Positions 43,342 through 54,670 of a stretch of 64,000 nucleotides of DNA are shown here, piece after piece. The notes beneath the pieces are model-generated. The model made no database searches, had not been told where the DNA came from, and saw only the letters and a list, made by a program, of their open reading frames with translations. The translations under genes were made by a program, and so were the position numbers. Every line of letters begins with the position of its first letter. The first letter of the stretch is position 1. The DNA comes from Actinomycetota bacterium (GTDB lineage: Bacteria > Actinomycetota > Actinomycetes > Actinomycetales > Microbacteriaceae): assembly GCA_020160915.1 (NCBI GenBank), contig JAIUPK010000005.1, positions 124,001-188,000 on the forward strand, written 5' to 3'.

Positions 43342-43890
43342 ATGGCGGCTCTCTCCTGGCTCGGCAGGCTCCTGCGCAATCGTCGGGCCGGGTCATCCCT
43401 CAGCATCTGGTTCGTTCCGGGGCTCCGCTCTGAGCGTGACCTGATCGTCAGCAGCCCGTCATTCGGTGACGGTGGTGCCATCCCGCAGCGCTTCGCTGGC
43501 CCCGGCGTGGGCGAGAACGTCTCGCCGGCGCTGGTGTTCAGCGGTGTACCCGTCGAGGCCCGCCACCTCGTGTTCGTGCTCGAAGACACCGACACGCCCA
43601 ACTCGCGTCCACTCATCCACACTCTGTCGATTCTGAATCCGGATGCCACGTCCCTCCCCGAGGGCGCGCTCGATCGCACCGCACCCGGAGTGACTCACCT
43701 CAAGGGCGACTTCGCGACCGGATACAGCGGACCCCGCCCCATCCCGGGCCACGGCACACACCACTACGGCTTCATGCTCTTCGCGGTGGACGTCGACATC
43801 GACACCACCAGCTGGCGCACCGCTCTCGAGTCGATCGAGGGGCACGTGCTCGCCCGCGGTCGAGTGATCGGAACCTACGAGCGAGCCTGA
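43342..43890 (+). CDS. YbhB/YbcL-type PEBP (Raf kinase inhibitor-like) protein
   Basis: A 182-residue phosphatidylethanolamine-binding-like protein. Contains the family signatures FVLEDTDTPN and GYSGPRPIPGHGTHHYGFMLFA with the ligand-pocket residues. Exact role unknown. Leaderless start: TAGACT (43329-43334, overlapping the previous stop), seven bases, ATG. Its end overlaps the convergent antiporter gene by 16 bases. Confidence 0.92.
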   Translation: MAALSWLGRLLRNRRAGSSLSIWFVPGLRSERDLIVSSPSFGDGGAIPQRFAGPGVGENVSPALVFSGVPVEARHLVFVLEDTDTPNSRPLIHTLSILNPDATSLPEGALDRTAPGVTHLKGDFATGYSGPRPIPGHGTHHYGFMLFAVDVDIDTTSWRTALESIEGHVLARGRVIGTYERA

Positions 43891-45080
43891 GCCTCGACCT
43901 TCGCCTCGGAGGCCAGTCGTCGGCGCTTGACGGTGTCCTTGAACCACGTGGCATCCGGAATTCTGGCCAACAGCGGACCCGAGATGATCGTGATCAGCAC
44001 GTAGGCCGCGGCCAACGGCGCGATCTGCGGCTCCAGGCCGGCGCTGACCGCAAGACCGGCGATGACGATCGAGAACTCGCCGCGCGGCGTCAGAACGAGC
44101 CCGGCCCGCCACCGACCGGGAACCGCGATTCCCGCCTTCTTCGCCGCCAGGTATCCGGTGGCGGTCTTCGTGCCCATGGTGAGCACCGCCAGCACCAGCG
44201 CGGGAATGAGCACAGGCACGATCGATGCCGGGTCGGTGGAGATGCCGAAGAAGACGAAGAACACGGTCGCGAACAGGTCGCGCAACGGCGAGAGCACGGC
44301 GGCAGCGTTGTGCGCCACCTGGCCCGACAGCGCGATTCCGACGAGGAACGCCCCGACGGCGGCCGACACGTTCACCTGTTCGGCGAGCCCGGCAACGAGC
44401 ATCGTGAGCCCGAGCACGCCCAGCAGCAGCGGCTCGGCGTGATGTGACGTGAACGCTCGTGAGAGCAGGCGCCCGTGGCGAAGCGCGAGGTAGAGGATGA
44501 CGACCACCACGCTCACTGCGATCACCACGGTGGTCGCGCCCTGAAGCAGCCCCGCGCCGATCACCAGGGCCGACAGGATCGGCAGGTAGAAGGCCATGGC
44601 GAGGTCCTCGATTACGAGCACCGACAGCACGACGGGGGTCTCACGGTTGCCCAGACGTCCGAGGTCGCGCAGCACCTTGGCGATCACACCCGACGACGAG
44701 ACCCAGGTGACGCCACCGAGGGCGACGGCGGCGAGCCATCCCCAGCCCATGATGAGGGCGAAGGCAGCGCCGGGCACCGCGTTGAGAAGCCCGTCCATCA
44801 GACCTGCGACGCGCGCGCGCTTCAGGCTGGATAGCAGCTCCTCCGCGGAGTACTCCAGACCCAGCATGGCGAGCAGAAGGATCACGCCGATCTGCGATCC
44901 GACTTCGAAGAAGCTCTCGCTCGCGTCGAACGGCAGGAACCCGCCGTGACCTACGGCGAGTCCCGCGAGCAAGTACAGCGGAATGGGGGAGATGCCCACC
45001 CTCAGGGCGAGGCGACCGAGCAGGCTGAGTACGAGTAGGAGGGCTCCCACCTCGATGAGCAGTACGGTCGTCTCGTGCAT
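43875..45080 (-). CDS. CPA2-type K+/H+ antiporter, KhtU-like
   Basis: A 401-residue membrane protein with about twelve helices of the CPA2 fold (LGLEYSAEELLSSLKRARV, VLSVLVIEDLAMAFYLPIL, and NVSAAVGAFLVGIALSG). It lacks a C-terminal nucleotide-binding domain; the regulatory subunit is encoded just upstream, as in Bacillus khtTU. Expected role: export of K+ in exchange for H+, for pH or osmotic control. Confidence 0.9.
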   Translation of the reverse strand: MHETTVLLIEVGALLLVLSLLGRLALRVGISPIPLYLLAGLAVGHGGFLPFDASESFFEVGSQIGVILLLAMLGLEYSAEELLSSLKRARVAGLMDGLLNAVPGAAFALIMGWGWLAAVALGGVTWVSSSGVIAKVLRDLGRLGNRETPVVLSVLVIEDLAMAFYLPILSALVIGAGLLQGATTVVIAVSVVVVILYLALRHGRLLSRAFTSHHAEPLLLGVLGLTMLVAGLAEQVNVSAAVGAFLVGIALSGQVAHNAAAVLSPLRDLFATVFFVFFGISTDPASIVPVLIPALVLAVLTMGTKTATGYLAAKKAGIAVPGRWRAGLVLTPRGEFSIVIAGLAVSAGLEPQIAPLAAAYVLITIISGPLLARIPDATWFKDTVKRRRLASEAKVEAQARS

Positions 45081-45088
45081 CGGTGGGG

Positions 45089-45583
45089 TTACCCCGGTCC
45101 GCGGTCGATGATCTTGGCCAGTGCGTCGAGACCCTTTCGTGTGCCAACGGCGACGATCACGTCACCCTGCTCGAGAAGCTCTGTCGGCGTGGGGGATGCG
45201 ATCACTTGAGTGCCGCGAGCGATCGCCACGATCGATGAACTGGTCAGCGTGCGCGCCTTGGTGTCGCCCATCTGCCTGCCGACCCACCCCGAGCCTGTGG
45301 GCAGCGTCATCTCCTCAGTGAACAGCCCCATCTCGCGAGTGCCCAGGCCGGTGACCCGACTGAGACTGAGGGATGCCCCGAGCACCTCCGCGAGCGCCGC
45401 GGCCTCGTCGTCGGTCAGGGCGATCGAGTCAGTGCTGGCATCAGGGTCGTCGGCGTCGAACAGCGCCAGATCGCGCTCGCCAGACCGCAGCGATACCACG
45501 CTGACGCGTCGTCCGCCTTCGGTGATCACGTCATTGCGCACGCCGATACCAGGAAGGTCAACCCGCTCGACTCGTACGCTCAC
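45089..45583 (-). CDS. TrkA-C domain antiporter regulatory subunit, KhtT-like
   Basis: A 164-residue soluble protein: N-terminal domain starting VRVERVDLPGIGVRND and a C-terminal RCK_C/TrkA-C domain (SSIVAIARGTQVIASPTPTELLEQGDVIVAVGT). It pairs with the antiporter eight bases downstream. I prefer GTG 45583, because TATGGT lies exactly seven bases upstream and the protein then starts like its relatives. An ATG at 45595 is the alternative. Confidence 0.9.
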   Translation of the reverse strand: MSVRVERVDLPGIGVRNDVITEGGRRVSVVSLRSGERDLALFDADDPDASTDSIALTDDEAAALAEVLGASLSLSRVTGLGTREMGLFTEEMTLPTGSGWVGRQMGDTKARTLTSSSIVAIARGTQVIASPTPTELLEQGDVIVAVGTRKGLDALAKIIDRGPG

Positions 45584-45608
45584 GAGTTTGACCATACAGG
45601 AGGAGAAC

Positions 45609-46415
45609 TCAGGCCGCGGCGCCCGCCGAGACGCCGTACTTCTTCATGGAGGTCTCCACGATCGTGAGACCCTCGAGCCCGGGCATCCGGGAGATGTGTT
45701 CGTCGAGCTTGCGGATCTCGCGCAGCCCCTCTTCGCCAGCGAAGATGTGGCCCATCACGTGGGTGACCTCGGCGGGCTCCATGACGCTGGATCCGACCGG
45801 TCCCCACGCGTTCTTCAGGGCGAACCGGGCAAGCACCTGAGCCTTCTTGCTCTTGGCGAGGCGCTCGCGCGCCTGGGTAGCGTAGAAGGCCACATGGCGC
45901 GCCTCCTGCTTGGCGATGCGCTTGAGCAGCACGGCGAGCACCGGGTGCTGCTCGAGCTCGGCAAGGCGGTTGTAGGCGGCTACGGCCGACCACTCGTTCG
46001 CGGCGCCCCAGATCATGTGTACGGCGATGAAGTCCTTGCCGACGATGTTGCCCAGGAGCGACTGCTTGATCGGGTCGAGCCGATCCTTCCAGCCGAGCTT
46101 GAGGCGCGTCGCCTTGAGCTCGTCGAAATCGACGGTGATGCCGTGCGCGCCGAGCACGGCGGCGAGGGCCTCGCCGTGCCAGAACTCCTCGCGGTTCCAC
46201 ATGGTCATGAAGGCCGAGACATCCGCCTCCTTGTGCGAGGGCGTCACCAGAAGGTCGCGCAGGTAGCAGACCGTGTGGTACTCGATGTCGCACATGTAAC
46301 GGAGGCTGCGCAGCGTGGACTCGGGCAGCGGGTTGGTCTCGAAGTCGCCGAAGTCGAGGTCACCCCACATCACGCTCGTCGACGTGGCGGTGTAGTTGTC
46401 GATATCAAATGCCAT
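45609..46415 (-). CDS. Diiron ferritin-like / acyl-ACP desaturase-like protein
   Basis: A 268-residue helical protein with a complete carboxylate-bridged diiron site: Glu45, Glu77-x-x-His80 (EEFWH), Glu141 (NEW) and Glu171-x-x-His174 (EARHVAFY). This is the order of soluble acyl-ACP desaturases and related oxygen-activating enzymes. The substrate is unknown. It is the last gene of an operon with a fatty acyl-CoA reductase and a ligand-less paralogue, so a lipid substrate is likely. One possibility is the vinyl-ether double bond of plasmalogens; another is ordinary fatty-acyl desaturation. Confidence 0.82.
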   Translation of the reverse strand: MAFDIDNYTATSTSVMWGDLDFGDFETNPLPESTLRSLRYMCDIEYHTVCYLRDLLVTPSHKEADVSAFMTMWNREEFWHGEALAAVLGAHGITVDFDELKATRLKLGWKDRLDPIKQSLLGNIVGKDFIAVHMIWGAANEWSAVAAYNRLAELEQHPVLAVLLKRIAKQEARHVAFYATQARERLAKSKKAQVLARFALKNAWGPVGSSVMEPAEVTHVMGHIFAGEEGLREIRKLDEHISRMPGLEGLTIVETSMKKYGVSAGAAA

Positions 46416-48759
46416 GGGATGCCGCGGGGCTCTCCTCGAGAGAGGTCCCGCCTCCTTCCGTGGGGGTCTGTTTCTCGGATTCTAGGCGCTGAACCTGTCG
46501 AACTGCCGCCGGGTGGCGCTTCCAATCCAGAACATTCCAGCGCTTCTCCTGCGCGTGCCGGTAGAGCTGGATGTCGGGGTTGACCGCGCTGGGGTTGCCG
46601 AGCAGTTGGAGCCAGACCAGGTCGGCGTGGCTGTCGCCGTAGCCGTACGACTGGCTGAGGTTGAATCCGTTCTGGTCGGCGTAGTGGCGCAGCCACGCGG
46701 CGCGAGCCTCGTCGACGAGCGGCGGGTCGGCCAGGAAGCCGGTGAGCACGCCATCCTTCTCCTGCATGCGGCCGGCGACCACCTCGTCGAAGTAGGGCAC
46801 GAACGGCGCCACCATGAGGTCGATCGTGCCGGTGACGAGGATCGTGCGGTGACCGGCATCCCGGTGCTCCTGCACTCGACGCAGGGCGTCGGGCAGGGCG
46901 CGGCGCATCATCGCCCGACCGAAGCTGCCGCGCACCAGACGTTCGATCTCGCTGACCTTGAAACCTTTGTAGCGGCGCATGAACGTGCGGATGAACTCGC
47001 CGCGGTCGCGCCGCTCGGCCCGCAGATACTTGGGCAGCGAGAAGGTGAAGTTCGCGAGGTCGTGCGCGACCCGCGACCGGGGAACGCTTCCCGCCCAGAG
47101 CTGGAGGTACTGCTTGACGAGATTCGATTCGAGCACAGTGCCCTCGAGGTCGAAGATGGCCACCACGTCGGAGCGCACCGGTAGCACACGGGCGCCACGC
47201 GTCTTGGCGGAGGGCCGGGTGGCGAACGCGCGCGTGAGGGTGGTGACGGCCGGGAAGTGGATCTCCTGGAAGTAGTGCTCCCAGTCGATCTCGGTGACGT
47301 CGAAGCCCTCGGTCTCCTGTACCTTCTTCGGCAGGCTCGCCAGCAAGGCACGCGTGTTGGTGTCGTCGAAGATGATCTCCGTCTGTACGTACGCGCGATA
47401 CAGCTCGGTGAAGGCGCGCAGCTGGCTCAGCCCGTGCTTGCCCCGGGAGACCTCGTCGAGCCACTTGCGGGTGCGCGGGGTCGTGGGCAGCCGCTCGATG
47501 ATCCTCTCCGCCCGCACCACCTGGTGTTCGCGCTTGGCGAGAGCCTTCTCCACTTTCTGGCCACCGGGGAAGCGCCACAGCGGAACCTTGATGTCGCCCT
47601 TCTCGTCGGGCAGCGGGTTGGCGGTGAAGTACTGGTTGACGTTCTCGTACATGCGATGGAAGGGCAGGGGGTTGCTCTTGCCCGACACGACCTGGAAGTA
47701 CTCGGGCTCGTTCGGCTTGGCCGGCCGCGCGGCGACCGCGAGGGCCGCGTTCACCACGAAGTCGACCGGGATGACGTCGAGCACCGAGTCGGGCAGGCCG
47801 GGGAAGTCGGGCAGCTGGCCGCGCCCGTAGGCGATGATCAGCGGGTCGGCGACCTTGAAGCCGTCGATCCAACCGGGGAAGGGGTGGTGCAGCGCGCTCT
47901 CGATGATCGACGGACGAACCACCGACAGGCGGTGGCCCGCCTGCGACCACAGCTCTTCGGCGGCCCGCTCGGCGAACGCCTTGGTGAGCGTGTAGACGTC
48001 GGTCCAGCCGAGGCTTTCGGCGCGGGTGCGGCCGTAGTCGACGAGTCGCTCACGCACCCACTCGGAGCGGGCGGCCTCGGCGAAACCCGCCACGGCCTGC
48101 GGTCCGGTCTTGCCGTGACGGGCGCGCGCCTTCGCGAGGTGCTGGCGCAGGGCCTCCGGTTGGCGCGACTCGAGCTCGACGCGGGTGCGGGCCGACTTCG
48201 CGGCCTCGTACTCCGCGCGCCAGTCCACGGTATGGGTGAGGGATGCCTCGGGCGCGATGCCCTTGCGGATGCCGCCCACGTAGGCGGTCGACACGTGAAC
48301 CACGTGCGGGTCGCTGCCGCTGGCGAGCAGGGCGCCGTAGACGCCGTGCGCTCCGCCGACGTTGGTGTCGAAGGCCTCATCGATGGGCGGATCGAACGAC
48401 ACCGTCGATGCTCCGTGGATGACCACGTCGATATCCGAGGGAAGGGTTCCGACGTTGGTCAGGCTGCCCTCGATCACGGTGATGCGCTTCGCAATGGCCT
48501 TGGTCGCGGCATCCTCACCGATCGATTCGATCCAGTTGGCGAAGACGGGCTTGCGCATGAGGTTGGCGAGCCGACCTTCGCCAGTCTGGCTTCCCTTGCC
48601 GCGCACGAGGATCGAGATGCGGGTGTCGGGATGCGACGACAGCAGTCGCTCGAGCACCGCCTGTCCTACGAACCCGGTCGCGCCCGTGAGGAACACATGC
48701 TCGTTGGTGAGCACCGGTGAGGACTTCGTGCGGGTGGTCGTCGTGCGTGTGGGAGTCAC
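46405..48759 (-). CDS. Fatty acyl-CoA reductase (FAR) fused to HAD-IB phosphatase
   Basis: A 784-residue two-domain protein. FAR half: Rossmann TGATGFVG at 25-32, VHVSTAYVGG near 154-163, catalytic Tyr256-x3-Lys260 (YTLTK), and a FAR_C-like stretch AYVQTEIIFDDTNTRALL. This matches enzymes that reduce acyl-CoA to fatty alcohol. HAD half: motif I DLEGT at 537-541 (second Asp replaced by Glu), LVTGT at 641-645, and YGYGDSHAD near 705-713. It starts at a GTG overlapping the preceding stop and overlaps the next gene by 11 bases. Expected to supply fatty alcohol for ether lipids; the HAD substrate is unknown. Confidence 0.88.
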   Translation of the reverse strand: MTPTRTTTTRTKSSPVLTNEHVFLTGATGFVGQAVLERLLSSHPDTRISILVRGKGSQTGEGRLANLMRKPVFANWIESIGEDAATKAIAKRITVIEGSLTNVGTLPSDIDVVIHGASTVSFDPPIDEAFDTNVGGAHGVYGALLASGSDPHVVHVSTAYVGGIRKGIAPEASLTHTVDWRAEYEAAKSARTRVELESRQPEALRQHLAKARARHGKTGPQAVAGFAEAARSEWVRERLVDYGRTRAESLGWTDVYTLTKAFAERAAEELWSQAGHRLSVVRPSIIESALHHPFPGWIDGFKVADPLIIAYGRGQLPDFPGLPDSVLDVIPVDFVVNAALAVAARPAKPNEPEYFQVVSGKSNPLPFHRMYENVNQYFTANPLPDEKGDIKVPLWRFPGGQKVEKALAKREHQVVRAERIIERLPTTPRTRKWLDEVSRGKHGLSQLRAFTELYRAYVQTEIIFDDTNTRALLASLPKKVQETEGFDVTEIDWEHYFQEIHFPAVTTLTRAFATRPSAKTRGARVLPVRSDVVAIFDLEGTVLESNLVKQYLQLWAGSVPRSRVAHDLANFTFSLPKYLRAERRDRGEFIRTFMRRYKGFKVSEIERLVRGSFGRAMMRRALPDALRRVQEHRDAGHRTILVTGTIDLMVAPFVPYFDEVVAGRMQEKDGVLTGFLADPPLVDEARAAWLRHYADQNGFNLSQSYGYGDSHADLVWLQLLGNPSAVNPDIQLYRHAQEKRWNVLDWKRHPAAVRQVQRLESEKQTPTEGGGTSLEESPAASHGI

Positions 48760-49562
48760 AGCCGTGCGGCCTTTCGGATCAGGGCGAGCCCGGACTGGCC
48801 GGGCAGGGTGTCGATTCGCTCATCGAGCTCGGCAACGAGGGCGGGTGCGGTGACGAACAGGTGGTCGAAGAAGAAGTGAGTCTCGTGCGCGGGCTCCGCC
48901 TTCGCGCCGATGGGCCACGGCGTCTTCGCCAGTCGCTTGCGTGCGAGCTTGCGGGCTTGCGGCGACTCGGTGAGACGGAAACGGGACTGGGCCTCGAAGA
49001 AGCTCAGCTGACGCTGCTTGATCTCGAGGAAGGTCGCGACGGTGCGATCGAACTCGGGGTTCGGGTCGAGGGCCACGAGGCGTCGGTACGCGGCCTGGGT
49101 GAGCCACTCGTCGACGGTTCCGAGCGTCATGTGCACGGCGATCATGGGAACGCCGATGATGTTGGCGACGATGGACTCGCGGATGGTGCGTTCGACCGGT
49201 GTGCGGAAGGGGGAACGGTCCGGCTCAGCACCCTCGGGCTGGTGAGCGAGCAGCACCTGCTCGAGCGCATCGGCGATCCAGTACTTCTCGAACGCCCAGG
49301 TCGTGAGGAATGCGGTGATGCGCGCGTCCTTGTGCGTCGCGGTCACGAGCACACTGCGCAGGTGCGTCATCGTCGCGCGCTCCACGATCTGGAGGTACCG
49401 GACGATCCGCAGTGTGGCGTCGCTGAGCGGCGCGGAACGATAGGCGGTGAGGTCCATCGACTCACGGTGGCTCCCGGCCGCCGTGCGTGCGAAGTCCCGA
49501 ACATCGAAGTCGGGTGCGGGGAAGTCAGCGCGGCCCACAGACGTCTCCTGGTGCTCGGGCAT
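48756..49562 (-). CDS. Ferritin-like paralogue lacking the diiron ligands
   Basis: A 268-residue protein that aligns along its length with the diiron protein at 45609-46415 (compare RYLQIVERATMTHLRSVLVTATHK with the related segment there). Iron ligands are largely lost: Glu77 becomes Lys93, His80 becomes Ile96, Glu171 becomes Lys182, His174 becomes Gln185. Only Glu61 and Glu152 remain. It is thus probably non-catalytic and may form a complex with the active paralogue. The ATG at 49562 is preceded by GGAGG at the right distance and gives the same length as the paralogue; an in-frame TTG lies at 49589. First gene of the operon. Confidence 0.78.
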   Translation of the reverse strand: MPEHQETSVGRADFPAPDFDVRDFARTAAGSHRESMDLTAYRSAPLSDATLRIVRYLQIVERATMTHLRSVLVTATHKDARITAFLTTWAFEKYWIADALEQVLLAHQPEGAEPDRSPFRTPVERTIRESIVANIIGVPMIAVHMTLGTVDEWLTQAAYRRLVALDPNPEFDRTVATFLEIKQRQLSFFEAQSRFRLTESPQARKLARKRLAKTPWPIGAKAEPAHETHFFFDHLFVTAPALVAELDERIDTLPGQSGLALIRKAARL

Positions 49563-49613
49563 CCGTACTACCTCCGGGAAACGGGACAAGTTCGGCCCAG
49601 TCTACCCGCCCAT

Positions 49614-49632
49614 CGCTACGGTGCCCGTAGCG
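49614..49632. promoter_or_regulatory. Perfect palindrome in the divergent ether-lipid promoter region
   Basis: CGCTACGGTGCCCGTAGCG: two 8-bp arms around TGC. It touches TAATGT (49633-49638), the -10 box of the SDR gene, and lies 13 bp from TAGACT (complement of 49596-49601), the likely -10 of the opposite operon. It is a good candidate operator for the TetR protein encoded at 52862-53473. Confidence 0.6.
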
Positions 49633-49645
49633 TAATGTATCCACC

Positions 49646-50473
49646 ATGGCAACGGCTCTCGTCACGGGCGGCACATCCGGCATCGGTGCCGAATTCGCCC
49701 GCCAGCTGGCTGCCTCCGGATACGACCTCGTGCTCGTCGCACGCAACCCTGACCGCCTGGCGTCCGCGGCGGAGCGACTGCATGCCGATGCGGGCATCAA
49801 TGTCGAGACGATCAGCGCCGACCTCAGCGACCGAGCGGATGTCGCGCGAGTTGCCGCGCGAATCGAGGATGCCGAGCATCCGATCGATCTTCTCGTGAAC
49901 AACGCGGGTGAGGGATTCCGCACCGCTCTCGCATCGGCTGATGTGACTGCGCACGAACATGCCTTCGACGTCATGTGTCGCGCAGTGCTCGTTCTCGGGG
50001 GCGCGGCCGCGCGTGCCATGAGCGGTCGTCGCGGCACGATCATCAACATCTCCAGCCTGCAGACGTACTTGGCCACCGGGGCGTATGCCGCGAACAAGGC
50101 GTGGGTGACCGCATACAGCCAGAGCCTCGCGGTGGAGCTCCGCGGCACCGAGATCGGTGTCACGGTCGTGCTGCCCGGCTGGGTGCGCACCGAGTGGCAC
50201 GAGCGCGCGGGAGTGCGTCGCAGCTCGCTGCCTGGCTTTCTCTGGACCCAACCCGAGGCCGTCGTGCGCATCGCGCTGCGGGACGCGCGGCGTGGCAAGG
50301 TCGTGTGCATACCGACTGTTCGGTACCGAGTGCTCGGCTGGTTTGCCCGTCACCTGCCGAATGCGGCTGTGCGCCGTATCTCTGCGGGCATCTCATCGGG
50401 ACGCGACGAGGCGTCACCAAGCGATTCGGCCGGCGGCGCCGAATCTTCAGCCATGAAGGCGGACACCGCATGA
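49646..50473 (+). CDS. Short-chain dehydrogenase/reductase
   Basis: A 275-residue classical SDR: TGGTSGIG at 7-14, NNAG at 85-88, Ser136/137 in NISS, Tyr147-x3-Lys151. The C-terminus has a hydrophobic, basic stretch (YRVLGWFARHLPNAAVRRI) that may attach to membranes, as in lipid-modifying SDRs. In this cluster it is a candidate alkyl-DHAP (1-alkyl-glycerone phosphate) reductase; that role is inferred from position. Leaderless start behind TAATGT. The PlsC gene overlaps its stop (ATGA). Confidence 0.88.
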   Translation: MATALVTGGTSGIGAEFARQLAASGYDLVLVARNPDRLASAAERLHADAGINVETISADLSDRADVARVAARIEDAEHPIDLLVNNAGEGFRTALASADVTAHEHAFDVMCRAVLVLGGAAARAMSGRRGTIINISSLQTYLATGAYAANKAWVTAYSQSLAVELRGTEIGVTVVLPGWVRTEWHERAGVRRSSLPGFLWTQPEAVVRIALRDARRGKVVCIPTVRYRVLGWFARHLPNAAVRRISAGISSGRDEASPSDSAGGAESSAMKADTA

Positions 50474-51177
50474 GCAAGGGCGAGAAGAGGGATCGGTTCA
50501 ATTCCCCGGCTGTCGCAACGGTGCGATTCGTCGCACAACGCGGCCTGCTGAAACCGCTGGTCTGGTCGTTGGTGCGCGTCACCGTGTACGGCAAGGACCA
50601 GATCGCCGAGCTCGACCGCCCCTTCATCGCCGTGGCCAATCACTCCAGCCATCTGGATGCACCGCTCGTGATCGGCGCTCTGCCCCGGCCCTTGGCGCGC
50701 TACCTTGCCGCTGGTGCCGCCGCCGACTACTTCTTCGACGTGCAGTGGCGCAAGTGGCTGACGACGCTGTTCTTCAATGCCTTTGCCATCGAGCGCAACT
50801 CCGAGGGCAAGCGCAGCGGGTCGTCCCGTTCGCTGCTCGAGCGACGAGTGCCCCTGCTGATCTTCCCCGAGGGCGGCCGCTCCAAGACGGGCGTCATGGG
50901 CCACTTCAAGCACGGCGCCGCGGCGTTGTCGATCGCCACCAAGGTGCCCTGCCTGCCCATCGCCCTCGTCGGGGCGAGTGACGCGATGCCTCGTGGCGTC
51001 AACTGGCCCAAGCGCGGAAGGCTGCCGGTTGCGGTAGTGTTCGGCGCGCCGATGCTTCCCGCCGCGGGTGACACGGCGGAGGATTTCTCCAACCGGCTTG
51101 CCGACGAGGTTCGCCGGCTCCACGCATCCGTGCAGCCCCACCCGAGTTGGGCGCACGCAGAGAAGGGAACGACATGA
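50470..51177 (+). CDS. PlsC-type 1-acyl-sn-glycerol-3-phosphate / DHAP acyltransferase
   Basis: A 235-residue membrane-associated acyltransferase. Motif I NHSSHLD at 57-63 (His58, Asp63) and motif III FPEGGRS at 132-138. It lies between the SDR and the alkyl-DHAP synthase-like gene, overlapping both by four bases. It could acylate DHAP to make the substrate of the synthase, or add the sn-2 chain later. Sequence alone does not decide. Confidence 0.9.
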   Translation: MSKGEKRDRFNSPAVATVRFVAQRGLLKPLVWSLVRVTVYGKDQIAELDRPFIAVANHSSHLDAPLVIGALPRPLARYLAAGAAADYFFDVQWRKWLTTLFFNAFAIERNSEGKRSGSSRSLLERRVPLLIFPEGGRSKTGVMGHFKHGAAALSIATKVPCLPIALVGASDAMPRGVNWPKRGRLPVAVVFGAPMLPAAGDTAEDFSNRLADEVRRLHASVQPHPSWAHAEKGTT

Positions 51178-52844
51178 CCTCCGTCAAGCACATGAAGTGG
51201 TGGGGCTGGGGCGTCGACGGCGTGGGCTTCCACTACGAGGACAAGCCCGGTTTCGCCCCGTTCGTGCTCCAAGCCGTGGGCCTTGACCTCTTGACGGCGG
51301 AGCGTGCCGGAGAGCCGGCGTTCGCAGACCTGAAGGTGCCGAAGTCCAACGCGACCGCCGCCTTCACCAAGACACTGGCCGGCATCGTCGGTGCTGACAA
51401 CGTGTCGACCGATGACATGCTGCGCGTCATCCACACCTATGGCAAGAGCCTGCGCGACCTGGTGCGCATTCGCGGCAACATGATCAAGCGCTCGCCCGAT
51501 GTCGTCGTCTACCCGGCCGACGAGGCCGAGGTGCAGCAGGTGGTGGATGCCGCCGTCGCAGCCAACGCCGTCATCATCCCCTTCGGCGGCGGCAGCAACA
51601 TCGCCTCAAGCCTGGAGCCGCTTCCCGAGGAGAAGCGCACCATCGTCTCGCTGGACCTGGGCCGGCTGCGCAAGGTGATCGACATCGATGCCGACTCCGG
51701 TCTCGCGCGCATCGAGGCCGGGGCTCAGGGCCCCGACCTCGAGGAGCAGCTCAACAAGCAGGGCTGGACCATCGGGCACTTCCCCGACTCCTTCACCCAC
51801 TCGACCGTCGGCGGCTGGGTCGCGACCCGCTCGTCGGGCATGCAGTCCGACAAGTACGGTGACATCGCCGACATCGCCCGTGGTCTGCGCGTCGTGCGCC
51901 CCGGTGGTGTGCTCGTGCTGCGTCCGCTGCCGAGCACGTCGAGCGGGCCGAGCGTGCGCGAGATGATCCTCGGTTCCGAGGGTCGCCTGGGCGTCATCAC
52001 CGAGGTCACGGTGCAGGTGCACCGGGTGCCCGCCAAGCGCGATGTCTACGCCTACTTCTTCCCGAACTGGAAGTCCGGTATCGCAGCGATGCAGGAGATC
52101 TCGGAGTCCGACGCGGCTCCGTCGATCACGCGCATCTCCGACGCGCGTGAGACGGGTTTCTCGCTGGCTACGAGCAAGGATCGCAAGGGCTTCGACAAGT
52201 TCCTCGCCGGAACAGTGCTGCCCGGCCTCATGAAGTCGAAGGGCTGGACCCTGGAGGACATCTGCCTCAGCTTCATCGGCTACGAGGGCAGCGTCTCCCA
52301 CGCCAAGCGTCAGAAGAAGCTCGTGGATGCCATCGTCAAGAAGCACGGCGGCATGGGCGTGGGCACGGGGCCCGGCATCCTCTACGACCAGAAGAAGTTC
52401 GACACGCCCTACCTTCGCGACTTCCTACTCGACATGGGCGCTGCCGGAGATGTCTCGGAGACCGCGGCCCCCTGGTCGAAGCTCGTCGCCCTGCACGAGG
52501 CGGTCTACGCGGCGGCCAACAAGGCCTACGACGAGATCGGCATCAAGGGCTGGATCATGAGCCACCTGTCGCACTCGTACCACTCGGGTGCGTGCCTGTA
52601 CTTCACCTTCGCGTTCGTCTTCGACAAGGATCCGATCGGCGAGTACGACCGGGTCAAGAGCGCGATCCAGCAGGCGTTCGTCGACAACCACGGCACGATC
52701 TCGCACCACCACGGAGTGGGCCTCGAGCACGCGCCGTGGCTCGAGCAGGACATCTCGGTCGAGGGCGTCAAGGTCATGCGCGGACTGGTTGGTGCGGCCG
52801 ACCCGAAGAAGAACTTCAACCCGGGCAAGATCTTCGCCGACTGA
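51174..52844 (+). CDS. FAD-dependent alkyl-dihydroxyacetonephosphate synthase-like protein
   Basis: A 556-residue FAD-binding oxidase/transferase close to eukaryotic AGPS, which swaps the acyl chain of acyl-DHAP for a fatty alcohol and creates the ether bond. Matching features: KWWGWG near the N-terminus, PFGGGSNIASS (136-146) of the FAD domain, PDSFTHSTVGGW (204-215), SHSYHSGACLY (466-476) with the active-site Tyr, and the HHH motif (511-513) in SHHHGVGLEH. No peroxisomal signal, as expected. It is coupled to PlsC (ATGA) with GAAGGGAA ahead. It is the diagnostic gene of the cluster. Confidence 0.88.
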   Translation: MTSVKHMKWWGWGVDGVGFHYEDKPGFAPFVLQAVGLDLLTAERAGEPAFADLKVPKSNATAAFTKTLAGIVGADNVSTDDMLRVIHTYGKSLRDLVRIRGNMIKRSPDVVVYPADEAEVQQVVDAAVAANAVIIPFGGGSNIASSLEPLPEEKRTIVSLDLGRLRKVIDIDADSGLARIEAGAQGPDLEEQLNKQGWTIGHFPDSFTHSTVGGWVATRSSGMQSDKYGDIADIARGLRVVRPGGVLVLRPLPSTSSGPSVREMILGSEGRLGVITEVTVQVHRVPAKRDVYAYFFPNWKSGIAAMQEISESDAAPSITRISDARETGFSLATSKDRKGFDKFLAGTVLPGLMKSKGWTLEDICLSFIGYEGSVSHAKRQKKLVDAIVKKHGGMGVGTGPGILYDQKKFDTPYLRDFLLDMGAAGDVSETAAPWSKLVALHEAVYAAANKAYDEIGIKGWIMSHLSHSYHSGACLYFTFAFVFDKDPIGEYDRVKSAIQQAFVDNHGTISHHHGVGLEHAPWLEQDISVEGVKVMRGLVGAADPKKNFNPGKIFAD

Positions 52845-52861
52845 GCGGGTGACGAGCAGAG

Positions 52862-53473
52862 CTACGGATGCCCGGCCGGCGCCATGAGCGCGGGCCAGAG
52901 CAACCCGAGCACCGACTCGACCCACGCGTCGTCAGTGGCGCGACCTCGGATCATCTCGGCCACCACCACTCCGAGCAGCATGCTGATCACGAGCTCGATA
53001 TCGAGGTCGGCGCGGATCTCGCCAGCGAGCGCTCGCTGACGCAGGTCCTCGCGGAACGGTCGTGTGGTCGTGCGGATCATGCCGAGCAGCAGCTCGGTGA
53101 AGTGCGGGTCGGCGTCGGCCATCACGGCCGCGATCGTGCCTCTCCCGACCACGTCCTCGATCGTGTCCCGCGCGTGGCGTAGCACCCAGCGCACGGTGTC
53201 CTGCGCGGTGAGCCCCGAGGGGATGGGAACGGCCGTGGCGGCTGAGGTCACCGCCGCTGTCAGCAGCGCGTCCCGGTTGGCGAAACGACGGTAGATCGTC
53301 GTCTTGGCGACTCCCGAAGCTGCGGCAACGGATTCGACACTCACGCCAGCTGGTCCCCGGCTGCGCAGCAGTACCAAGGCTGCGGTCGCGATGCGTTCGT
53401 CGACGTCCGGTCGGTGCGCTGGAGGTGCGGGCGCGGCATCCACCGCAGGATCCCCGGTCGCCGCACTAGCCAC
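52862..53473 (-). CDS. TetR/AcrR family regulator
   Basis: A 203-residue repressor-type protein: N-terminal HTH (RIATAALVLLRSRGPAGVSVESVAAASG, then VAKTTIYRRFANRDALL) and a ligand domain with a TetR_C-like end. It is convergent with the alkyl-DHAP synthase gene and is the probable local regulator; a lipid or acyl-CoA ligand is a guess. GTG start at 53473 is leaderless: TAGCAT (complement of 53480-53485), six bases. Confidence 0.9.
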   Translation of the reverse strand: MASAATGDPAVDAAPAPPAHRPDVDERIATAALVLLRSRGPAGVSVESVAAASGVAKTTIYRRFANRDALLTAAVTSAATAVPIPSGLTAQDTVRWVLRHARDTIEDVVGRGTIAAVMADADPHFTELLLGMIRTTTRPFREDLRQRALAGEIRADLDIELVISMLLGVVVAEMIRGRATDDAWVESVLGLLWPALMAPAGHP

Positions 53474-53526: not shown

Positions 53527-53622
53527 TTGACTCTGCGGGCGCGCGGGGTCAGTCTGAGGCTAGGACCAGCTGAAACAACCCGTAGGGTGCACGCCCTTGC
53601 TGATCATGATCGGTGCTGACCG
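53527..53622 (+). promoter_or_regulatory. Promoter and shared leader element of ice-binding-like gene 1
   Basis: TTGACT at 53527-53532 lies 58 bp upstream of a 38-nt block (53585-53622, GGGTGCACGCCC, then GATCGGTGCTGACCG). The same arrangement, at the same 58-bp distance, precedes the second gene. Confidence 0.55.
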
Positions 53623-53650
53623 AGTTCATGTCTTACAGCAGGGGGAACCT

Positions 53651-54670
53651 ATGTCCGGTTCGTCATCTCACTTGATGTCGAAGTCCGCACTCGCGGTTGC
53701 GGCGCTGGTTGCCGCATCGGCACTCGTGCTGCTCACTGGCGTCAATCAGGCTCACGCCGTCGATGAGCCGGGGGATGCCGAGTTCCTCGGCACGGCCGAG
53801 GACTACGTCATCATTGCCGCACAGACCATCACCGAGACATCCGGGTCGGCTGTCGAGGGGGATGTCGCGCTCTACACCGGCACCGACCAACAGCTCCTGG
53901 TCGGTCAGGTCGACGGCGAGATCCATGTGGGCACGGATGCCGCGGGCGGCATCGCCATGGCCGATGCGACCGCCGCCTACAACATTGTTGCCCTTGCGCC
54001 AGCGACCAGCGAGGTCGTCGCCAATCTTGCTGGTGGCGTGTACCTCGCCGGCGTCTACCACTCGGCGGCAAGCCTGTTGCTCGACGGAACCATGGAGATC
54101 CACGGCGTGACGGCTGACGACGTATTCATCTTCCAGGCGTCGACGGAGGATCTCACCGTGCTCGCGGGGAGCCACGTCATCCTGACCGGGCTCGCTCAGG
54201 CGTGCAACGTCTACTGGCAGGTCGGAAGCTCCGCGACGATCGGGAGCAACTCGGTGTTCGTGGGAACCGTGCTTGCCTACTCGGACATCGCAGCTCAGAC
54301 CGGCGCCACGATCGAAGGGCGGCTGATCGCACTGACCGGCGAGGTGACGCTCGATGACAACACGATCGATAGCCAGACCCTGTGCGTGCGCACAGCCGTG
54401 GTCGTCACTCCGACGATCACAACCACGACCACTACCAGCAGGCTGAACGGTGTCGTGACGGTCGATGTGGTCGACACGGCAACACCACCCGTGGTCGGCG
54501 AAGGACCGGATGCCGGTCGGGCGGGCAGTGTGGATCGCGAAGCGTTGGCCAGTACCGGTGCCGGCACCGTCGACTACTCCGTGCCGTTGACTGTTGTCGC
54601 ACTCCTGTCGGTTCTCGGTCTCGGGCTGGTCTTCGTGTCGCGGGTGTCGTCCCGGCGCGAGACCGATTAG
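53651..54670 (+). CDS. Ice-binding-like (DUF3494) surface protein 1
   Basis: A 339-residue exported protein: signal peptide to about residue 37 (ending NQAHAVD) and a DUF3494 domain with QACNVYWQVGSSATIGSNSVFVGTVLA and GATIEGRLIALTGEVTLDDNTI. A Thr-rich linker leads to LASTG, a membrane helix and SSRRETD. DUF3494 is the fold of many bacterial antifreeze proteins, but members also act as adhesins, so ice binding is not proven. LASTG suggests wall anchoring by a class E sortase. The ATG at 53651 follows GGGGGAACCT. Confidence 0.85.
   Translation: MSGSSSHLMSKSALAVAALVAASALVLLTGVNQAHAVDEPGDAEFLGTAEDYVIIAAQTITETSGSAVEGDVALYTGTDQQLLVGQVDGEIHVGTDAAGGIAMADATAAYNIVALAPATSEVVANLAGGVYLAGVYHSAASLLLDGTMEIHGVTADDVFIFQASTEDLTVLAGSHVILTGLAQACNVYWQVGSSATIGSNSVFVGTVLAYSDIAAQTGATIEGRLIALTGEVTLDDNTIDSQTLCVRTAVVVTPTITTTTTTSRLNGVVTVDVVDTATPPVVGEGPDAGRAGSVDREALASTGAGTVDYSVPLTVVALLSVLGLGLVFVSRVSSRRETD

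Follow-up and report, generated by a model that had tools for sequence, protein, structure and literature searches.

A divergent two-operon locus of Microbacteriaceae as a probable aerobic ether-lipid pathway, with a paired diiron protein as candidate plasmalogen desaturase

The window analyzed here is a 64,000-nucleotide stretch of contig JAIUPK010000005.1 (positions 124,001 to 188,000, forward strand) from the Microbacteriaceae assembly GCA_020160915.1, a genome of 2.93 Mb in 8 contigs. At positions 45609-52844 of the window lies a six-gene set, which an earlier note, made from the sequence alone, had read as a cluster for aerobic synthesis of ether lipids, possibly plasmalogens. The genes encode a ferritin-like diiron protein (diA), a fatty acyl-CoA reductase (FAR) fused to a HAD phosphatase domain, a ligand-less paralogue of diA (diB), a short-chain dehydrogenase/reductase (SDR), a PlsC-type acyltransferase and a homologue of alkylglycerone-phosphate synthase (AGPS) (Table 1). 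All the genes that the note named are present in the window sequence with the ends that it gave. Its picture of a single cluster of adjacent, mostly overlapping genes stands as regards adjacency and overlap (4 bases for diB/FAR-HAD, 11 for FAR-HAD/diA, and 4 each for SDR/PlsC and PlsC/AGPS), but the set forms two divergent operons, head to head, rather than one. The minus-strand operon reads diB, FAR-HAD, diA, and the plus-strand operon SDR, PlsC, AGPS.

Table 1. Features of the locus and its immediate surroundings, in window coordinates.
Feature	Positions	Strand	Evidence
diA, ferritin-like diiron protein with the complete ligand set, candidate desaturase	45609..46415	-	ligand alignment, structure model, Foldseek
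FAR-HAD, fatty acyl-CoA reductase (residues ~19-505) and HAD-IB phosphatase domain (~533-749)	46405..48759	-	profile and structure matches
diB, diA paralogue without diiron ligands	48756..49562	-	hhalign, structure model, ligand table
Divergent intergenic region between the operons, 83 bases	49563..49645	.	sequence
SDR oxidoreductase, proposed acyl/alkyl-dihydroxyacetone phosphate reductase (putative role)	49646..50473	+	PF00106, E 2e-39
PlsC-type acyltransferase	50470..51177	+	PF01553, E 2e-18; TIGR00530 under its cut-off
AGPS, alkylglycerone-phosphate synthase homologue	51174..52844	+	tree, conserved residues
TetR-family regulator, adjoining the cluster, not a conserved part	52862..53473	-	family scan; 24/80 loci
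Ice-binding-like protein gene (PF11999), beyond the TetR gene	53597-54670		family scan
CPA2-type cation/proton exchanger and separate TrkA_C domain protein gene, directly adjoining diA	43875-45595		family scan

The arrangement was followed through the contigs of other genomes, using the best 80 of 326 AGPS relatives, among which the closest named relatives of the window protein belong to Rhodoglobus and Salinibacterium. SDR, PlsC and AGPS stand together in all 80 loci, and all six genes are present in 72, with identical order and orientation in 71; a recurrence of this extent shows that the arrangement is not due to chance. Two further loci (L023 and L024) are cut by contig ends, while six lack diA and diB nearby, four of these being without a nearby FAR-HAD as well. 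FAR-HAD relatives (43-64% identity) nevertheless occur in all six of these genomes, and two of them, from Naasia (L034) and Actinoplanes (L047), carry diA and diB elsewhere, so that all six genes are present but split over two places.

The earlier note had also proposed a search for co-occurrence in Microbacteriaceae, which was run on an evenly drawn set of 140 genomes, each at least 95% complete, counting as AGPS orthologues proteins of at least 64% identity. AGPS was never found without diA: 38 genomes carry both, none carries AGPS alone, six carry diA alone, and 96 carry neither. Each of the 44 genomes with diA also has a second, diB-like match. FAR-HAD is present in 39 genomes, namely the 38 with AGPS and diA together with G108, one of the six diA-alone genomes, in which the cluster is cut at a contig edge. 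In three genera (g1, g9 and g15), one genome each lacks diA, AGPS and FAR-HAD together, the remaining genomes having all three. A more distant AGPS-like protein (32-38% identity) occurs in four Microbacteriaceae genomes, including the diA-alone genome G138. The Fisher value for the co-occurrence (2.6e-28) ignores kinship among the genomes, so we do not read it as a probability. Outside the family, a 2.35-Mb plasmid from Streptomyces (L142; NZ_CP109481.1, 1069083-1094729) carries the six genes with unchanged order and orientation. It is typed as mobilizable, in a collection with no genes listed for it, and such a plasmid copy is a possible route by which the cluster spread between families.

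The identity of the plus-strand flavoprotein is central to any lipid assignment. Its best relatives of solved structure are the AGPS of Dictyostelium (2uuu, 397 bits) and of guinea pig (286 bits), with D-lactate dehydrogenase following at 76 bits. Against a set of reference sequences, it scores 384 bits with Dictyostelium AGPS and at most 94 bits with GlcD, LctD and D-lactate dehydrogenase; identity over the aligned part is 39.5% to the Dictyostelium and 33.3% to the guinea pig enzyme. In a midpoint-rooted IQ-TREE phylogeny of 34 rows, in which long branches are flagged, the window protein, its actinobacterial relatives and the two eukaryotic AGPS sequences are split from D-lactate dehydrogenase, LctD and GlcD at 100/100. 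A distant actinobacterial group (34-38% identity) also falls on the AGPS side, within which the branching order is weak (88/23, 83/70), and a second FAD-oxidase_C protein of the same genome (L001) falls on the opposite side. The motifs GACLYF and GHFPDS occur in all 80 copies, an Arg515 pattern in 79 (the miss being L016), and SHHH in 72 by pattern and in the remaining 8 by alignment, these eight reading HHHA or HHHS rather than HHHG. The active-site residues of AGPS are Tyr578, His615-617, His300 and Arg515.

The earlier note had itself raised the alternative that the flavoprotein groups with D-lactate dehydrogenase or glycolate oxidase, in which case the cluster would be unrelated to ether lipids. 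The top curated model is indeed NCBIfam GlcD, with a score of 122 bits that is far under the cut-off of 568. Given the bit scores, the retained active-site residues and the split in the tree, in which the grouping is with AGPS, this identity is ruled out for practical purposes and the assignment of the note is borne out. As an AGPS homologue, the flavoprotein would be expected to make alkyl-dihydroxyacetone phosphate (alkyl-DHAP) from acyl-DHAP and a fatty alcohol.

The reductase that would supply this alcohol is likewise confirmed as a FAR, since its residues 19-505 align with 7eoz, a fatty acyl-CoA reductase of solved structure (E 4.3e-46), and it matches PF07993 (E 4.5e-47), with PF03015 at 33.7 bits, just below the cut-off of 35.4. 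The YxxxK pattern is kept in 76 of 76 copies. The HAD part aligns with 3fvv (E 4.1e-8), and its motif I reads D-x-E in place of D-x-D, with Glu at the position of the usual general acid/base Asp. The form F-D-x-E-G-T is found in 71 of 76 copies; four of the other five are from Streptomycetaceae and read FDLERT, while the last, from L024, is cut by the contig end and has only 339 residues. The SDR and PlsC proteins are clear members of their broad families, the SDR motif pattern being matched in 77 and the NHxxxxD motif of PlsC in 78 of 80 copies. The PlsC-type enzyme may acylate either DHAP or the sn-2 position, and neither is assignable over the other.

The two remaining genes encode the intact diiron protein and the ligand-less paralogue that the earlier note had described. 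The ligands of diA (E45, E77xxH80, E141 and E171xxH174) do not vary among the 28 sequences that were aligned. At the positions of E77, H80, E171 and H174, the diB protein of the window has K, I, K and Q, and none of 20 aligned diB sequences has an acidic residue at the E77 position or a histidine at the H80 position. The two proteins are paralogues according to hhalign (probability 100, 31% identity). Structure models were obtained with a mean pLDDT (predicted local distance difference test) of 85.2 for diA and 87.5 for diB, and the folds closest to diA in a Foldseek comparison are those of plant acyl-ACP (acyl carrier protein) desaturases and DesA2 of Mycobacterium tuberculosis, followed by R2lox. 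The desaturase matches (ranks 1-3, 5 and 7) have query template modeling (TM) scores of 0.57-0.61 at 13-17% identity; one match has an E-value below 0.001. DesA2 (1za0) is also the nearest natural sequence to diA in the PDB (E 0.005-0.025). For diB, R2lox and desaturases are nearest, none with an E-value below 0.001; the ferritin-like fold is kept and the ligands are not.

By these comparisons, diA looks like a divergent cousin of the soluble acyl-ACP desaturases, DesA2 included, with which it shares the ferritin-like fold and the E, ExxH, E, ExxH ligand pattern. It differs from them in its low identity, in a TM score of about 0.6 and in its pairing with a ligand-less partner. The combination of a live and a ligand-less subunit resembles other heteromeric diiron enzymes. 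A further Foldseek match to diA is a Kitasatospora protein with aldehyde-deformylating activity (6d9f, rank 18, E 0.015). Since diA and diB also flank FAR-HAD, the pair could be imagined to consume the fatty aldehyde or alcohol of FAR in a separate, hydrocarbon-forming branch. Yet the acyl-ACP desaturases rank above 6d9f, and five genomes keep the pair but have no FAR-HAD (see below), which leaves such a branch very improbable.

The comparison with lipid analyses that the earlier note called for could be made from the literature, which in the portions available reports acetal-type peaks for three cluster-bearing lineages: Subtercola, Frigoribacterium and Agreia. The table entry for Subtercola vilae DB165 gives 17.0% i-16:0, 3.2% a-15:0 and 1.9% a-17:0 dimethyl acetals and lists no unsaturated acid (PMC5945732). 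The genome of this very strain (L076) carries the six genes. The same table has acetals in all four Subtercola species that it covers, quoted to Mannisto 2000, at most 4% in Agreia, quoted there from others, and none in Frondihabitans (PMC5945732); the six genes are present in the genome of Agreia pratensis (L044). Anteiso 15:0 aldehyde/dimethyl acetal (DMA) is given for Frigoribacterium adelgis D8 and is quoted also for the type strain of F. faeni in the part of the description available (PMC12823222). The cluster is carried by the F. faeni genomes L058 and L060. The former, NBRC 103066, is presumably the type strain.

The reported negatives are to be read with some care. In Kineococcus, a peak called C14:0 2-OH by the MIDI system was recognized by gas chromatography-mass spectrometry as a-15:0 DMA, according to the section available (PMC7472656). 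This misnaming makes software-based acetal negatives unsure, including that of Frondihabitans, in which C14:0 2-OH is a major acid. By analogy, the C14:0 2-OH of Microbacteriaceae descriptions may be a misread anteiso-15:0 DMA.

FAR enzymes can proceed via an aldehyde, which opens the alternative that the cluster yields only saturated alkyl ethers, or at any rate no plasmalogens, and that the acetals found after methanolysis arise from fatty aldehydes released by FAR or from some other source. The name aldehyde/DMA given to the Frigoribacterium peak (PMC12823222) would fit such an origin, and in the part available of PMC9131029 an aldehyde-based route is said to have been considered at one time for Myxococcus xanthus. 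However, acetals in an aerobic actinobacterium have been taken as a sign of plasmalogens in the section available of PMC7472656, 17% is in our judgment a large share for free aldehyde, and the diiron pair would be left unexplained. We therefore regard this alternative as improbable and consider it likely that plasmalogens are the product in at least some of the carriers.

The earlier note saw no known plasmalogen enzyme at the locus, and domain searches of whole genomes give the same result. PF10520, the family of CarF, TMEM189 and PEDS1, has no match in any of 11 genomes (the source genome and 10 named ones, including S. vilae, A. pratensis and F. faeni), nor in any of 14 controls. The model does find matches in 11 of 396 genomes of a sample of the phylum, none of them from Microbacteriaceae. 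PF09989, which we take to be a proxy for plsA/plsR, likewise has no match in the same 11 genomes and matches 4 of the 14 controls.

In eukaryotes, FAR provides the fatty alcohol, AGPS swaps the acyl for the alkyl chain, a reductase gives 1-alkyl-glycerol-3-phosphate and an O2-dependent desaturase forms the vinyl ether, as outlined in the part available of PMC9131029. A corresponding sequence can be drawn for the window. FAR would reduce acyl-CoA to a fatty alcohol, and the PlsC-type enzyme would acylate DHAP or, at a later stage, the sn-2 position. In a flavin-based reaction, AGPS would put the fatty alcohol in place of the acyl chain carried by acyl-DHAP, the SDR would convert alkyl-DHAP to 1-alkyl-glycerol-3-phosphate, and the HAD domain would remove phosphate at some step. 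Finally, diA in complex with diB would most likely use O2 and two electrons to desaturate the alkyl chain at its 1' position. The resulting plasmalogens would be seen as the saturated branched dimethyl acetals of Subtercola and as the acetal-type peaks of Frigoribacterium and Agreia. The last step is given to diA and diB because they are the sole O2-type enzyme of the cluster, because they track AGPS in Microbacteriaceae, and because the S. vilae table, as far as it goes, contains no other unsaturated chain. What is observed are the protein families, gene order, linkage, co-occurrence, ligands and lack of PF10520 and PF09989 matches; all of the catalysis, the association of diA with diB and, most of all, desaturation at the 1' position are inferred.

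Several observations weigh against this reading. Within Microbacteriaceae, five genomes from three genera (G035, G103, G064, G084 and G138) have diB adjoining diA without FAR-HAD or an orthologous AGPS. The neighbors of these loci (L087-L091), annotated in three of them, are DNA ligase, luciferase-like, lysine-decarboxylase-like and NusA genes. In the tree, their sequences fall into a single derived branch within those of the cluster carriers, for diA (85/88) as well as diB (98/92), which indicates a single line of descent in which the pair either outlasted the other genes or was relocated, and which shows that the pair can persist without ether-lipid genes. In the phylum sample, diA relatives occur in 19 of 396 genomes, 4 of them Microbacteriaceae and 15 among the 387 genomes from outside the family, the latter at 30-54% identity. 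Thirteen of these 15 have only a single match, and the 14 of their neighborhoods that were examined contain no match to AGPS, FAR-HAD or PlsC. In a clustering of the neighboring genes, a few recur between two or three loci, and none points to a function. The full ligand set is kept in 12 of the 13 outside-family relatives that were aligned, L132 being the exception.

Conversely, AGPS occurs without the pair. Among the 80 AGPS loci, those of Phytoactinopolyspora (L081) and three Propionibacteriaceae (L078, L079 and L082) come from genomes in which diA and diB are absent throughout. AGPS-like proteins at an E-value below 1e-80 occur in 80 genomes of the phylum sample, six of them with at least 56% identity, and in four of these six (G534, G450, G427 and G514), whose AGPS proteins are clade-mates, a PlsC gene adjoins AGPS, while diA is without a match anywhere in the genome and FAR-HAD without one in the stretch examined. 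These four genomes and the one nested branch of Microbacteriaceae together indicate that AGPS needs no pair outside the family, and that the pair needs no AGPS in one lineage. In addition, diA scores 20.0 bits with the acyl-ACP desaturase family PF03405, below the cut-off of 22.7, and is thus not classed as a member, while diB has no match. Another candidate desaturase is at hand in the membrane family FA_desaturase (PF00487), which is present in 15 of 15 genomes tested, with or without the cluster. Finally, the phenotype evidence consists of three lineages, found by searching for acetals, none of which is the strain of the window, and the part available of PMC12823222 does not report the acetal peak in two other Frigoribacterium species.

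The likeliest alternative to a vinyl-ether desaturase is that the cluster makes ether lipids while diA and diB modify the chain elsewhere, by mid-chain desaturation, hydroxylation or another oxidation, and that the vinyl ether is formed by a different enzyme, such as PF00487. The five genomes with the pair and no AGPS orthologue or FAR-HAD, the diA relatives apart from AGPS in other families and the ubiquity of PF00487 in the genomes tested all agree with such a role, as does the fact that the nearest folds to diA act on acyl-ACP chains. Against it, the fatty acids and acetals in the S. vilae table (PMC5945732) are saturated, so that they give no sign of a mid-chain double bond, and PF00487 occurs also in genomes without the cluster (G086, G021 and G027), so that, unlike the pair, it does not track AGPS in Microbacteriaceae. 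We consider this alternative unlikely, if to be taken seriously.

It is thus highly probable that the cluster encodes an aerobic ether-lipid synthesis pathway. The identities of AGPS and FAR agree with the earlier note, but its claim that the cluster encodes the whole route goes further than the evidence, since the cluster contains no electron donor for the diiron protein and PlsC is not assignable to its step. Its proposal of the diiron pair as a new desaturase or modifying module is, as regards the desaturase, favored by the tracking of AGPS in Microbacteriaceae and weakened, as a strict role, by the lineage with the pair but no AGPS or FAR-HAD and by the AGPS carriers without the pair. On the strength of co-occurrence and acetals, diA and diB are the best single candidate for the 1' (vinyl-ether) desaturase, at odds that fall slightly short of even. 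A little more tentatively still, they may represent a new plasmalogen-forming class, related to acyl-ACP-desaturase-like proteins, in which a live subunit and a ligand-less one make up a soluble heterodimer of the ferritin-like diiron type that would form the vinyl ether with O2. As a whole, the locus is best explained as an ether-lipid pathway with diA and diB most likely acting as the 1' desaturase, to which we assign a probability of about 0.5.

With the eukaryotic pathway (FAR1, GNPAT, AGPS, alkyl-DHAP reductase and PEDS1), the system has in common an AGPS homologue, a FAR, an SDR and an acyltransferase, but here these genes form a bacterial cluster, FAR is fused to HAD, and a soluble diiron pair stands in place of a PF10520 protein. 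The anaerobic plsA/plsR system differs in its presumed marker, PF09989, and in that the ether is here built from DHAP by the AGPS route. The product class would be alike if our reading is right, and a TetR regulator adjoins the pls gene in some facultative anaerobes, according to the section available of PMC9702350. Further parallels are the elb operon and the MXAN_1676-1674 operon of M. xanthus, which share AGPS, FAR-like and acyltransferase domains, a HAD protein (ElbB), aerobic growth and branched chains (PMC9131029, in part). The domain fusions differ, however; CarF performs the plasmalogen step in M. xanthus, and the portion available of that source mentions no diiron pair.

A sub-type of the cluster carries a homologue of LarA (Lar_N, PF09861) and a second PlsC between FAR-HAD and diA, as seen in S. 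vilae (L076:2770-5039) and in genomes G109, G020 and G147. The genomes with this insert (S. vilae and those of L143, L144 and L145) span two genera, g8 and g31. In Actinoplanes (L095:2-7784), a LarA homologue together with LarE-, LarB- and LarC-like genes surrounds FAR-HAD and the pair, the LarE and LarB calls being a reading of broad Pfam hits. LarA has no match within the window, and among loci L003-L082 only L076 matches. LarA belongs to the nickel-pincer-nucleotide racemase family. In at least two lineages, these matches connect the cluster with a family of nickel-cofactor enzymes.

At the edge of the locus, the TetR gene, whose end lies 17 bases past the AGPS stop, was placed at the end of the cluster in the earlier note; it is present there, but neither it nor the ice-binding-like gene is a fixed part, with matches near only 24 and 7 of the 80 loci, respectively. 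The ice-binding-like match would fit a cold-living host. Two minus-strand open frames (49525-50310 and 50350-51156) match no family, as they are only shadows of SDR and PlsC on the opposite strand.

No description of the six-gene cluster was recognized by title or abstract in the open literature; subscription papers were mostly outside this scope, so that one may be in print elsewhere. Beyond the myxobacteria, true CarF homologues are reported only in Leptospira, according to the part available of PMC9131029, and together with the acetals of aerobic Microbacteriaceae this makes the genes behind those acetals look open. The cluster names specific genes that can be tested in culturable strains, and it offers a candidate new way to the vinyl ether bond. 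Genome data could then predict plasmalogen-making aerobic bacteria, in which fatty-acid software may name the acetal a hydroxy acid, as in the section available of PMC7472656. Should diA and diB prove to be a new plasmalogen-forming class, plasmalogens would have arisen independently a third time, besides plsA/plsR and CarF/PEDS1, and the dimethyl acetals found in aerobic actinobacteria would be accounted for.

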